DNA from: Metapseudomonas otitidis
Lineage (GTDB): Bacteria > Pseudomonadota > Gammaproteobacteria > Pseudomonadales > Pseudomonadaceae
Direction of reading: 5' to 3'
DNA length: 64,000 bases
Assembly (NCBI RefSeq): GCF_900111835.1
Contig: NZ_FOJP01000005.1
Span: 62,001 to 126,000 of the forward strand
The notes under the pieces are model-generated. The model saw only the letters and a list, made by a program, of their open reading frames with translations, was not told where the DNA came from and searched no databases. Shown here piece after piece: positions 45,061-48,856 of this stretch; position 1 is the first letter of the stretch, and each line of letters starts with the position of its first letter. The position numbers were made by a program, and so were the translations under genes.

Positions 45061-45088
45061 CGCACCGCCACTGACTCAAGGAGGGGTC

Positions 45089-45622
45089 ATGTCCAACTAC
45101 CGCCGCGCACGAATGCCGGGCGGCACCTACTTCTTTACCGTCAACCTGCGTGACCGGAGCAGCGACCTGCTGGTGCGCGAGATTCACCTGCTGCGCCAGA
45201 CGGTGGGCTTGGTGAAGGCGCGCCTGCCCTTCCACATCGATGCCTGGGTGGTGCTCCCCGAACACATGCATTGCCTCTGGACGCTGCCACCCGGCGACCA
45301 CGCCTTTGCCGAACGCTGGAAGGCCATCAAATTCGCCTTCTCCAAACGCCTGCCCGACACCGAACCCCGTACCGAACGGCAACGGACGCGAAAGGAGCGC
45401 GGCATCTGGCAACGCCGCTATTGGGAACATCTGATCCGCGACGACCTCGATTACCAGCGGCATTTCGATTACATCCACATCAACCCGATGAAACACGGGC
45501 ACGTCCAACAGGTTCGGGATTGGCCGTATTCCAGCTTTCACCGAGCGGTGCGGGATGGCATCTACCCGGCGGATTGGGCAGGGAACGGGGTTGATACCGA
45601 CGGAGCGCAGTGGGGCGAGTGA
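45089..45622 (+). CDS. REP-associated tyrosine transposase (RAYT, TnpA_REP)
   Basis: 177 residues, close to the usual RAYT length. The HUH metal motif is H59-M-H61 in PEHMHCLW and the catalytic Tyr is Y128 in DYIHINPMKHG; the N-terminus has the typical YRRARMPGGTYFFTVNL. Such enzymes cut single-stranded REP hairpins and are thought to spread them; they are normally single-copy and not self-mobile. BIME-like units lie on both sides. The start has a GAGGGG ribosome site. Confidence 0.9.
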   Translation: MSNYRRARMPGGTYFFTVNLRDRSSDLLVREIHLLRQTVGLVKARLPFHIDAWVVLPEHMHCLWTLPPGDHAFAERWKAIKFAFSKRLPDTEPRTERQRTRKERGIWQRRYWEHLIRDDLDYQRHFDYIHINPMKHGHVQQVRDWPYSSFHRAVRDGIYPADWAGNGVDTDGAQWGE

Positions 45623-45640
45623 GGCCTGCGCCGGGCGAGC

Positions 45641-46022: not shown

Positions 46023-46152
46023 GATCCCGCCCTCCCGCTTCCGCCTGACCGATCAGCCATTTCCCACGCGGTAACTGCATTGCCACCTTCCGGGTGCGCC
46101 CATAGCCTCCGTCCCCGGCGCCTAAGAAACGCTTACTCACCTAGCGGCCTGA

Positions 46153-46179
46153 CCGCTCCCGAAAGTTCAGCGGCTTTTT
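46153..46179 (+). terminator. Hairpin with T run upstream of the C4-like RNA
   Basis: CCGCT (46153-46157) pairs with AGCGG (46169-46173), followed by CTTTTTTG. It would end transcription entering from the RAYT side and insulate the next locus. Confidence 0.6.
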
Positions 46180-46204
46180 TGTGCATGCGGCACACTCGCG
46201 CACG

Positions 46205-46300
46205 CTCAAAACCTCTGTATGTCGGGAGTGGGCTAATACAAGACCCGAAAGGGGAATACGTCCGGCCCTCTAGGTGGGGTTTCTTAACTCCCGACGCCAA
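46205..46300 (+). ncRNA. C4-type antisense RNA candidate
   Basis: A perfect nine-pair closing stem (GTCGGGAGT 46221-46229 with ACTCCCGAC 46287-46295) encloses a structured region with CCCGAAAGGGG. Segment a' ACCTCTG (46211-46217) is complementary to CAGAGGT (46328-46334), which contains the ribosome site of the next gene. Segment b' CTAGGT (46270-46275) is complementary to ACCTAG (46322-46327). The two targets are contiguous and in the order expected of the C4 RNA of phages P1, P7 and P4, which silences the ant operon. The boundaries are approximate. The family assignment rests on this logic, not on a covariance search. Confidence 0.7.
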
Positions 46301-46321
46301 CAGCCCTGAGAAAGCTGTAAG

Positions 46322-46334
46322 ACCTAGCAGAGGT
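46322..46334 (+). promoter_or_regulatory. Antisense target covering the BRO-N ribosome site
   Basis: ACCTAG followed directly by CAGAGGT is complementary to the two C4-like segments upstream. AGAGG is the ribosome site for the ATG at 46336, so pairing would block translation. Confidence 0.65.
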
Positions 46335-46335
46335 A

Positions 46336-46833
46336 ATGGACATGCCCGATTCACCCTAGCTCCACGACGAGATCCTCATCCCCACCCTGTTCACCCGCCA
46401 CCGCCGCCAGCTCCGCGCACTGCTGCTGGACGACGAGCCCTGGTTCGTCCTCAACGACCTGGCGCGGCTGATCAACCGCGTCCCGCTCGACGAACGCGCG
46501 CCCCGGAACCTGGACCCGGACCAACTGCAGCCCGCCTGGGTGCGCGACAGCAGGGGCGAATATAAGCGCGAGCTGCTGGTCAGCGACTGCGGCGTCTACG
46601 CGCTGCTGATCTTCTACTACCACCCGGAGAACGGCGGCATCCGCCGCTGGATCAGCCGCGAGGTGATCCCCCGCCTGCGCGAAGAGCGCCACCCGAACGC
46701 CCTGCGCCCCTACCGCGACGTGGTGCACTGGCAGGAACGCCCGCTGGAGGTGCTGCACTGGCAGGGCCGCACCTGGCTGGATGCCAGCGAATGCCACCGC
46801 CTGCTGCAGCGACCGGCACGGGTGATCGGCTAA
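46336..46833 (+). pseudogene. BRO-N domain antirepressor-like gene with in-frame amber codon
   Basis: From the ATG at 46336, which has an AGAGG site, the frame reads MDMPDSP, a TAG (46357-46359), then LHDEILIPTLFTRHRR and a further 158 codons in all to the stop at 46831-46833. The downstream part is a BRO-N domain (LRALLLDDEPWFVLNDLARL, SDCGVYALLIFYYHPENG, IRRWISREVIPRLRE), as in phage antirepressors. No C-terminal DNA-binding domain follows. No good start lies between the TAG and the domain; the first ATG, at 46540, would lose half of it. Either a nonsense mutation or a short leader ORF with reinitiation explains this. A sequencing error is also possible. Confidence 0.72.
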
Positions 46834-47155: not shown

Positions 47156-48856
47156 ATGGAACTCGCCTTCGATCGCTACCCCCAGCAACCCCACGGTGGA
47201 ACCCTGGTTAACCAGGTGGTGCCCGCCGACCGGGTCCAGGCAGAAATCGCGCGGGCACGCGCCATGCCGTCGATCCGCATCGACCTGGAGGCGGTGATCA
47301 CCATCGAGATGATCACCACCGGCGTGCTCTCGCCCAACAAGGGCTTCATGAACCAGGCCGACTACCTGTCCGTGCTGGGCAGCGGCCGGCTGGCCAACGG
47401 CGTGGTGTGGCCGGTGCCGCTGAGCTTCGCACCGGTGGGCGAGCGTAACCGCGAGGTGATCGCCGCCCTGGCGGTGGGCGATGAAGTGGCCCTGATCGAC
47501 AACCGCAACGAGCCGGTGGCCATCCTCGCCATCGAGGACATCTTCGATTACGACAAGGAAGAGCGCGCCCGCCAGCTGTTCGGCACCACCGACCGCAACC
47601 ACCCGGGGGTGGACGCCATCCACCGGCGCATGGGCGATGTGGCCCTGGGCGGCACGCTGCAGTTGCTGCAACGGGTCGACTGGGGCCCCTTCGAGTCGTT
47701 GCGTCTGGAACCCCGGGACACCTGGAAGCGCTTCTACGAGGAGCGCGGCTTCCGCTCCGTGGCCGGCTTCATCACCGGCGCCAACCCGCTGCACCGGGGC
47801 CACGAATACATCCACCGCAACGCCCTGGAAGGCATCGACGGCCTGCTGCTGCAGCCGCTGGTGGAAATGGCCAAGCGTGAATACGTGCGCCACGAGTACC
47901 GCATGCAGGCCTACCGCAACGTGCTGGAGACCTACTACCCCAAGGACCGCGCCATGCTCTCGCCGCTGCGGGTCACCTACATCTTCGCCGGCCCCCGGGA
48001 GACGGTGTTGCACGCCCTGATCATGAAGAACTACGGCTGCACCCATGCGCTGATCGGCCGCGACCACGCGGGGATCGGCAGCTACTACGACAAGTACGCC
48101 AGCCACAGCATCTTCGACCAGTTCACCCCGGACGAGCTGGGCATCGAGGTGCGCCTGTTCCACGAGGTGTTCTACTGCGTGCGCTGCGCCAGCCACGCCA
48201 CGACCGAAACCTGCCCCCACGACGAGCGCTACCGGCTGAACATCTCCGGCACCGGCATCCGCGAGATGCTGCGTCACGGCCTGGTGCCGCCCAAGGAGGT
48301 GGTACGCCCGGAGTCGGCCCTGGCGGCCATGCAGGGCATCCAGCCCAAGGGCCTGGGGGACGACGGCGAAGGCACCCTGCCGGTGGCCAAGGTGATCCAG
48401 AGCCTGTTCCCCTTCTACACCCGCTTCACCCGCCTGGGCGGCGCACCGCGCCAGCAGCCCCTGGAAGCGGAGGCCCTCACCGTGCGCGACCTGGAACTGG
48501 CCTGCCACGAGGCGCGTACCCACACCGGCGATGTCTACGACGGCGTCTACCGCGAATACACCGCCCTGCTGGACCACAACCGCAGCCTGCAACCGGCCTG
48601 GGTGGACGACGCACGCGACGCCCTGCACCGGCAGCAGCGGCGCCTGCTGGATGACCTGGACGAGAAATTCAGGCAGGCACCGGAACAGGCCTCCGACGAG
48701 TTCATGTACCAGGACCAGGCGGAAGTGCAGCGGGAACTGAGCGCCGCCCGCACGCTGCTTGACGACATCCCCGCAGCGATGGACGCCACCCGCCTCGCCA
48801 ACCGCGCCTGGAACAGCCTGCCCTACCCCCGCTACCGCGGCGCCGACGACGCCTGA
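47156..48856 (+). CDS. Divergent ATP-sulfurylase (sulfate adenylyltransferase) homologue with extra C-terminal domain
   Basis: 566 residues with an ideal AGGAGGAAAC ribosome site. N-terminal PUA-like domain (HGGTLVNQVVPADR, SPNKGFMNQADYLSVL), then the catalytic fold with NPLHRGHEY (HxxH at 213-216), LIGRDHAG, and a zinc-type cluster Cys341, Cys344, Cys353. The usual QxRNPxHRxH motif reads ITGANPLHRGH, so the Gln and Arg that hold sulfate are missing while the ATP-binding part stays. After about residue 400, where single-chain enzymes end, about 165 more residues follow. These lack an APS-kinase P-loop and look helical (EKFRQAPEQASDEFMYQDQ). No sulfur gene adjoins. Family membership is clear; the reaction is not. 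Confidence 0.8.
   Translation: MELAFDRYPQQPHGGTLVNQVVPADRVQAEIARARAMPSIRIDLEAVITIEMITTGVLSPNKGFMNQADYLSVLGSGRLANGVVWPVPLSFAPVGERNREVIAALAVGDEVALIDNRNEPVAILAIEDIFDYDKEERARQLFGTTDRNHPGVDAIHRRMGDVALGGTLQLLQRVDWGPFESLRLEPRDTWKRFYEERGFRSVAGFITGANPLHRGHEYIHRNALEGIDGLLLQPLVEMAKREYVRHEYRMQAYRNVLETYYPKDRAMLSPLRVTYIFAGPRETVLHALIMKNYGCTHALIGRDHAGIGSYYDKYASHSIFDQFTPDELGIEVRLFHEVFYCVRCASHATTETCPHDERYRLNISGTGIREMLRHGLVPPKEVVRPESALAAMQGIQPKGLGDDGEGTLPVAKVIQSLFPFYTRFTRLGGAPRQQPLEAEALTVRDLELACHEARTHTGDVYDGVYREYTALLDHNRSLQPAWVDDARDALHRQQRRLLDDLDEKFRQAPEQASDEFMYQDQAEVQRELSAARTLLDDIPAAMDATRLANRAWNSLPYPRYRGADDA

Follow-up and report, generated by a model that had tools for sequence, protein, structure and literature searches.

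C4 is an antisense RNA that is processed by RNase P from the transcript of its own target gene. In the annotated record of phage P1 the RNA (48343-48419) is preceded by two putative target sites, a1 at 48255 and b1 at 48269, and followed by a second pair, a2 at 48423 and b2 at 48452, ahead of the short icd frame at 48470; the heteroimmunity of P1 and P7 acts through this RNA, according to the available part of PMC12197685. The CI RNA of P4, like C4 assigned to RF01695, pairs with an upstream (seqA) and a downstream (seqC) site, acts via termination and targets replication genes, as the accessible portion of PMC4825925 describes it. The same portion presents IsrK of Gifsy-1 (RF01394), a leader RNA with a terminator ahead of an antirepressor gene, as activating in trans rather than repressing. 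Matches to isrK are found upstream of C4 in P4 and, below the cut-off, in P1.

The sRNA-Xcc1 family (RF02221) was described from Xanthomonas, where the accessible text of PMC2996969 reports a discrete band of ~100 nt with ends mapped to an 88-nt RNA. It lies upstream of symE in Xanthomonas integron cassettes (PMC12444791), and Xylella Temecula1 carries seven copies, five of them within ~1.6 kb (PMC12189769); the available parts of these two papers treat it as a virulence-linked or vesicle RNA. A literature search, with most subscription journals outside its coverage, returned no paper joining sRNA-Xcc1 with BRO proteins or with an antirepressor. The locus analyzed here lies in a 64-kb stretch of the Metapseudomonas otitidis genome, the whole of which we call the window, and comprises an RNA of this family in front of a BRO-N frame that is interrupted by an amber codon. 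Comparative sequence analysis makes it likely that the sRNA-Xcc1 RNAs are a C4-type antisense class guarding the gene directly downstream, and that the window copy has lost its protein and kept the RNA switch.

An sRNA-Xcc1 element with the layout of C4

The first-pass annotation, which was made from the letters of the window, had proposed that a C4-type RNA silences the BRO-N frame, with a search by the Rfam C4 model as the check. C4 (RF01695) gave no match in 46100-46500 at E up to 5, and at E up to 1 all 20 of the related loci examined lack one at the RNA, so that membership of that family is rejected; as controls, the P1 and P4 regions match C4 (68.8 and 74.9 bits, respectively) and not sRNA-Xcc1. 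Instead, RF02221 is the one RNA family that cmscan finds in the window at gathering scores, over the full model length (1-87). The isrK model gave no match in 46100-46500 at E up to 5, and a mir-933 match was below its cut-off and was rejected. What stands of the C4 reading is its logic: an antisense RNA, two target sites and an antirepressor-type gene.

Two complementary segment pairs had been noticed in the initial reading, ACCTCTG (46211-46217) with CAGAGGT (46328-46334) and CTAGGT (46270-46275) with ACCTAG (46322-46327), and both are present with these sequences and coordinates. A third copy, CACCTAG at 46138-46144 (b1), had been overlooked, as had a second antisense segment, GTTTCTTA at 46279-46286 (a'), which pairs with TAAGAAAC at 46123-46130 (a1). 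The equivalent of the C4 a' segment sits 3' of b', and the pair 46211-46217/46328-46334 does not correspond to it; in other families the a' position holds different sequences, likewise matched to their targets. The hexamer ACCTAG occurs 7 times in the window against 9.7 expected, so that a 6-nt match alone is at chance level; we take the b'/b2 match as real because of the covariation among relatives described below.

Judged from these segments, the predicted layout is that of C4, with b' placed in the loop of the second hairpin, a' following on its 3' side, and a1-b1 preceding a2-b2, of which a2 is imperfect. According to the structure lines of the two models, the P1/P7 RNA and the window RNA share a closing stem and a pair of hairpins, the second of which carries b' in its loop and is followed by the strand with a'. 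The order of the targets is the same and their distances from the RNA are similar on both sides: a1 and b1 lie 88 and 74 nt upstream in P1 and 98 and 83 nt upstream in the window, and a2, b2 and the start codon lie 4, 33 and 51 nt downstream in P1 and 5, 19 and 33 nt downstream in the window. In P1 an antirepressor gene is controlled, and in the window a gene that resembles this type follows the RNA. The two classes differ in that the covariance models gave no cross-match in the tests made and in that the sRNA-Xcc1 type has a longer first hairpin with an AATACAA-ACCCG-AAGGG core; moreover, the window gene is a solo chromosomal gene, and in its genus most loci have the short frame joined to the gene. 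With the P4 CI RNA, as given in the accessible text of PMC4825925, the window locus has in common one upstream and one downstream pairing site and a predicted termination step, and differs in the RNA family and in that P4 controls replication genes. The coordinates of all elements are collected in Table 1. The promoter-like hexamers have similar counterparts in most of 25 same-genus leaders, by a comparison made by eye only.

Table 1. Elements of the sRNA-Xcc1 locus, in window coordinates
Element	Position	Strand	Evidence or remark
Predicted promoter	46080..46108	+	-35 TTGCCA 46080-46085, -10 TAGCCT 46103-46108, 17-nt spacer
a1, upstream target TAAGAAAC	46123..46130	+	perfect complement of 46279-46286 (repeat analysis)
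b1, upstream target CACCTAG	46138..46144	+	inverted repeat 46138-46147 vs 46267-46276; covaries with b' and b2
Predicted antiterminator hairpin AGCGG/CCGCT	46143..46157	+	pair probability 0.86 in the free leader; 5' arm overlaps b1
Predicted intrinsic terminator CCGCT/AGCGG and T run	46153..46180	+	probability 0.98 once a1-b1 is blocked
ACCTCTG, able to pair with the ribosome site in cis	46211..46217	+	weak enrichment in relatives; paired in the minimum-energy fold
sRNA-Xcc1-type antisense RNA	46221..46303	+	RF02221, 72.4 bits, cut-off 53
b', CTAGGTG, loop region of second hairpin	46270..46276	+	complement of b1 46138-46144; 46270-46275 also of b2
a', GTTTCTTA, strand 3' of second hairpin	46279..46286	+	complementary to a1
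a2, GAGAAA, imperfect downstream target	46308..46313	+	within predicted -19.9 kcal/mol duplex with b'-a'
b2, ACCTAG, adjoins Shine-Dalgarno sequence	46322..46327	+	inverted repeat with b'
Seven codons and TAG, corresponding to the leader part of relatives	46336..46359	+	alignment; leader classes; TAG missing from 21/22 same-genus frames
BRO-N part of interrupted frame	46360..46833	+	Bro-N profile and homologue alignment

Targets and antisense segments vary in step

Compensatory changes in relatives, to which the first-pass annotation had tied its proposal, are present: b1, b' and b2 vary in step. The comparison used 154 of 157 genome loci (the rest were dropped for short flanks or duplication) and, out of 129 viral placements, the 103 that remained after removal of duplicates, short flanks and cases lacking a closing stem. 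Viral statistics were restricted to 76 of these 103, with a start codon 20-60 nt downstream and a frame of at least 60 aa, and with named records left out, so that this set favors loci with a well-placed gene; the viral figures are a sample, being drawn from among the matches listed. Loci below the RF02221 cut-off were included throughout. An antisense part of at least 7 nt fits both target regions in 89 of the 154 genome loci (null 0.35%) and in 41 of the 76 viral loci among the matches listed (null 0.7%); against the downstream region alone the viral figure rises to 69 of 76 among the matches listed (null 8.6%), and the end of b2 was located in 64 of the 76, at a median of 9 nt before the ATG.

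Taken on its own, b' fits both targets in 96 of 230 loci over a length of 7 nt or more, with a null from mismatched pairs of 0.13%, and over 6 nt in 148 (null 0.93%), the other 82 having no 6-nt b' match in both targets. Because the 230 loci share descent, they should not be counted as independent events, and a fairer gauge is the count of motifs: the 148 loci hold 73 non-nested motifs that are 6 nt or longer, with a few perhaps stemming from a'. A direct example is the pair L008 and L014, which are 92.8% identical over 2.4 kb including the flanks, and yet differ in b1, b' and b2 in step. Among the 27 same-genus loci we distinguish seven b alleles, by our own labels; the exceptions to the stepwise change are L024 and L027, which lack a BRO-N gene downstream, and L026, in which the targets have decayed. 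Covariation far above the null in both genome and viral loci leads us to reject chance complementarity.

The other pair, in which the segment just before the RNA meets the ribosome site, is also enriched, more weakly. The 20 nt before the RNA pair over at least 7 nt with the downstream 60 nt in 52% of the 27 same-genus loci, 16% of 127 other-genome loci and 22% of the 76 viral loci among the matches listed, the nulls being 15%, 6% and 4%, respectively. The pair with strong support is b'/b2.

A predicted attenuator and the specificity of pairing

Upstream of the RNA, the CCGCT arm of the AGCGG/CCGCT hairpin can instead pair with a later AGCGG that is followed by six T. When a1-b1 is blocked in silico in the window leader, the predicted structure flips from antiterminator to terminator, with the probability of the latter rising from 0.09 to 0.98. 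The same test on 24 same-genus leaders, which folds a single strand, not co-transcriptionally, with the block set by hand rules, gave a mean rise in terminator probability from 0.10 to 0.63 and a fall of the antiterminator from 0.82 to 0.10; 15 of the 24 leaders rise by more than 0.3 and the remaining nine by 0.3 or less. An automated block, which fell on a1 in many same-genus loci, changed the terminator probability little there (0.10 to 0.16). It raised this probability from 0.48 to 0.70 in viral leaders among the matches listed (control block 0.48) and from 0.50 to 0.59 in other genomes (control 0.45). A terminator signal is detected in 24 of 27 same-genus leaders against 0.6 in shuffles, the three without a recognizable one being L003, L025 and L026, in 78 of 129 other-genome leaders against 7.6, and in 50 of 76 viral leaders among the matches listed against 3. 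The P1 sequence after b1 can also be read as an antiterminator, GTGCGG/CCGCA, followed by a terminator made of TGCGG and a T run.

The predicted duplexes appear partly allele-specific, with the own allele favored on average: mean energies are -25.6 for the own and -19.6 for a different allele at the upstream site, and -23.6 and -19.1, respectively, at the downstream site. Certain foreign pairs are predicted to be as good or better. The RNA of the window allele (CCTAG) scores -22.5 on the CGTAG downstream site, stronger than the -19.8 on its own; the CAGAG and AGCAG RNAs on the CCTAG downstream site and the CTCACAG RNA on the CTTGG upstream site are further cases. Of 17 pairs of paralogs from the same genome, 1 has an allele in common against 2.56 expected (P 0.24), an avoidance that is not significant. 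Given these strong foreign duplexes and the lack of significant avoidance, we put heteroimmunity among the modules forward as a hypothesis.

As side observations, CCCGAAAG in the terminator loop (46158-46165) is repeated in the first hairpin of the RNA (46244-46251), and CCCGAYAG-like loops recur in the terminators of relatives.

Leader frames and the amber codon

The window frame runs from the ATG at 46336 through seven codons to a TAG at 46357-46359 and then through 157 sense codons to a stop at 46831-46833, which bears out the roughly 158 codons first estimated. The fragment matches Pfam Bro-N (PF02498) weakly (19.5 bits, E 0.0015, cut-off 25.6) and is similar to Ant proteins of phages (tblastn, E down to 8e-13), while 39 of 40 aligned solo BRO-N homologs, hand-picked from 133 frames listed, match Bro-N at E up to 0.001. 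Automatic frame choice missed the BRO-N start in some loci. Leader classes were assigned in 52 solo BRO-N loci recognized by a BRO-N motif. In 22 of these a separate leader frame of 20-32 codons starts from the target site, and all 22 stop at the same point, precisely 8 nt beyond the A of the BRO-N start codon ATG. Two more, L003 (three codons, offset 4) and L035, have a leader frame besides an in-frame start, bringing the loci with a leader overlapping the BRO-N start to 24 of 52. In 26 others the leader is fused in frame with BRO-N, as is mostly the case in the window's genus; in L039 the leader ends short, and the window is the remaining locus. A short frame between RNA and gene is thus common in the solo BRO-N group, a2-b2 often belonging to this leader, and the parallel with icd before ant in P1 that had been drawn at first is closer than it seemed.

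The amber codon itself is private to the window among the copies compared. Conservation of the TAG had been put forward as a check, and in the 22 of 27 same-genus starts that were aligned a stop at this position is seen in the window only, the other 21 frames having none; a conserved TAG is accordingly rejected. The codon after it, CTC, stands opposite the initiator Met in the alignment with relatives that bear a leader, which places the TAG exactly at the border of leader and BRO-N, and the amber would therefore restore the leader border and not the start codon. There is no in-frame ATG, GTG or TTG after the TAG before the GTG at 46540, inside the BRO-N domain. The remaining frame has a dN/dS of 0.19 against L002, in keeping with constraint until recently, so that the amber may be recent. 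The same genome has three copies of the module, and the other two, L002 (165 aa) and L003 (157 aa from the ATG), have open BRO-N frames. On the alignment, the window copy is probably a recent null allele, though the amber may be a sequencing error. Of the readings offered by the first-pass annotation, the degraded module whose RNA survives fits best; reinitiation after a seven-codon leader is made doubtful by the usual fusion of leader and BRO-N in the genus, the 21 of 22 frames without the stop and the late GTG.

Phyletic spread, guarded genes and mobility

At E up to 0.001, RF02221 matches were found in 15 of 18 genomes of the genus and in 51 of 248, 26 of 369 and 54 of 349 genomes of a family, a class and a phylum sample, respectively, these sets overlapping; each time none of 14 control genomes had a match. 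A homology search with the window fragment reached 4 distant loci. A called frame starts 20-60 nt 3' of the RNA in 101 of 151 genome loci and in 81 of 101 viral loci among the matches listed. The 82 viral downstream proteins among the matches listed (87 less five from named records) hold, by Pfam and with double counting possible, P22_AR_C in 19, Bro-N in 19, KilA-N in 16, AntA in 15, Rha in 13, ORF6N in 7 and P22_AR_N in 4. In the named records, the first gene annotated downstream of the match encodes an antirepressor in Mannheimia phage 1152AP2, Aaphi23, Rac-SA53 and Pmp3, and also in Aggregatibacter S1249, there with an annotated start ~270 nt away; in Acinetobacter 4316 it encodes a KilA-N protein, and in Moraxella Mcat15 its product is annotated as hypothetical. 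Sequences resembling the Rac-SA53 module are present in 158 of 5426 E. coli genomes, 44 of which cover at least 80% of it.

Downstream of the non-solo genome loci, 70 proteins hand-picked from 133 frames listed include SymE_toxin in 12, Bro-N in 7 and few other domains, the rest having no Pfam match listed. By covariance model the window RNA belongs to the family known from Xanthomonas and Xylella, and the SymE neighbors recall the symE genes of the integron cassettes in the available part of PMC12444791. At the SymE_toxin loci, which would be candidates for type I toxin-antitoxin systems, a b2 match of at least 6 nt lies beside the start in 10 of 12, one start having been set by hand, and a plasmid search with a SymE-type locus gave 6 partial matches. 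For the solo BRO-N start none of nine viral pattern matches carries the RNA, the pattern being short enough for chance matches, and viral carriage of this start is rejected on these nine. The viral contigs of L202, L232 and L242 each hold a pair of sRNA-Xcc1 cores separated by ~240-530 nt, which may be modules in tandem, and L123 has a c4-2 match below threshold (34.8 bits, cut-off 41) at 2890-2958, near its sRNA-Xcc1 locus.

The module had first been described as lying outside a prophage, in agreement with the six neighbor genes scanned. The window copy (L001) and L002 are similar only from -168 to +547 of the RNA start, and the flanks of same-genus loci are unshared in 16 of 27 cases downstream and 15 of 27 upstream. 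The other 12 upstream flanks are linked by similarity; between L001 and both L006 and L018 the shared stretch coincides with a transposase gene at ~45064-45624. The window has an IS200-like transposase at 45086-45619 (Y1_Tnp, 20.2 bits, below cut-off), presumably of the REP-associated type, upstream of the module, and comparable DNA precedes other modules of the genus, which may bear on mobility. A P. aeruginosa plasmid also carries a module, next to mer and Tn3 genes, with a b' sequence that differs from that of the window. L024 and L027 are RNA elements without a BRO-N gene downstream, the RNA of L027 being altered near its 3' end; we take the frame that follows it to resemble an IS transposase.

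Proposed mechanism and alternative readings

We propose that one transcript, probably from the promoter near 46080-46108, would run through the leader, the RNA and the BRO-N gene. Before the RNA accumulates, the leader would form the antiterminator and transcription would continue. The released RNA, through b' and a', would pair with a1-b1, breaking the antiterminator and letting the terminator form, and would also pair with a2-b2, covering the ribosome site. In many relatives the covered site would be that of a short leader frame overlapping the BRO-N start; translational coupling would then extend the silencing to BRO-N, in the way that P1 silences ant by way of icd. Both acts, attenuation and the block of the ribosome site, would keep the antirepressor-like BRO-N protein off, and the differing b sequences suggest that pairing is module-specific.

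Several other readings of the window locus deserve consideration. The RNA might have been kept as a trans-acting immunity factor that, its own protein gone, silences matching modules on incoming phages or plasmids, much as the first-pass annotation imagined a switch against incoming phages. The RNA, a1-b1, the attenuator and b2 are indeed intact despite the broken frame, RNAs without a downstream BRO-N gene exist in L024 and the altered L027, P1/P7 heteroimmunity works via C4 in the available part of PMC12197685, and the Pseudomonas plasmid carries such a module, though with another b' sequence. We regard this as unlikely, since the dN/dS of 0.19 against L002 allows a recent amber whose RNA needs no function to be retained, none of the nine viral pattern matches carries the RNA, and within-genome paralogs do not avoid sharing alleles significantly (1/17 against 2.56, P 0.24). 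It is quite unlikely that the leader acts in cis only, with the 5' ACCTCTG closing over the ribosome site and the RNA element serving as a folded spacer: the minimum-energy fold pairs 46211-46218 with 46327-46334 and the ACCTCTG-type pair is enriched in relatives, but far more weakly than b', which matches both the upstream site and the ribosome site with all three varying together, and sRNA-Xcc1 was seen in Xanthomonas as the discrete, end-mapped RNA reported in the accessible text of PMC2996969.

Equally to be weighed is the idea that the amber marks a return to the arrangement of leader plus BRO-N, the seven codons being read first and BRO-N then by reinitiation. It draws on the separate short leaders of 24 of 52 solo BRO-N loci, down to three codons in L003 of the same genome, and on the alignment of the codon after TAG with the initiator Met of leader-bearing BRO-N proteins; we hold it very doubtful, for the stop overlaps the ATG in all 22 separate leaders, where the window has CTC and a first in-frame start only at GTG 46540. 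A last view, that sRNA-Xcc1 is a free-standing trans regulator of host or virulence genes with an incidental position before these genes, is the published reading of sRNA-Xcc1 and its Xylella homologs in the accessible parts of PMC12444791 and PMC12189769. We consider it extremely improbable, since 101 of 151 genome loci, and 81 of 101 viral loci among the matches listed, have a called frame that begins 20-60 nt behind the RNA, and the loop sequence varies with the ribosome site beside it.

Returning to the guarding of the downstream gene by a C4-type RNA, an orphan Rfam family would gain a specific, testable job, in which the target of each member is predictable from its own neighbor, and the virulence and vesicle studies (PMC12444791 and PMC12189769, in their available parts) would gain a first candidate target, the neighboring gene. 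On balance we favor a wider picture, in which sRNA-Xcc1 would form a second C4-type class, widespread among Pseudomonadota and their phages. It would possess dozens of pairing sequences and act in two steps, by attenuator and by ribosome-site block, often through a coupled leader frame. Its members, including the "virulence" sRNAs of Xanthomonas and Xylella, would on repeated occasions have moved out of phages and come to guard solo BRO-N genes, SymE toxins and small genes of unknown function carried by chromosomes, plasmids and integrons, and these selfish modules of the cell would fall into heteroimmunity groups. A classical mechanism of phage immunity would thereby be linked to toxin-like modules in chromosomes. 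One genome (G871) has nine RF02221 matches (L126 and L144-L151), before a SymE-like gene and unknown small frames, and these nine copies offer a natural test of orthogonal specificities.
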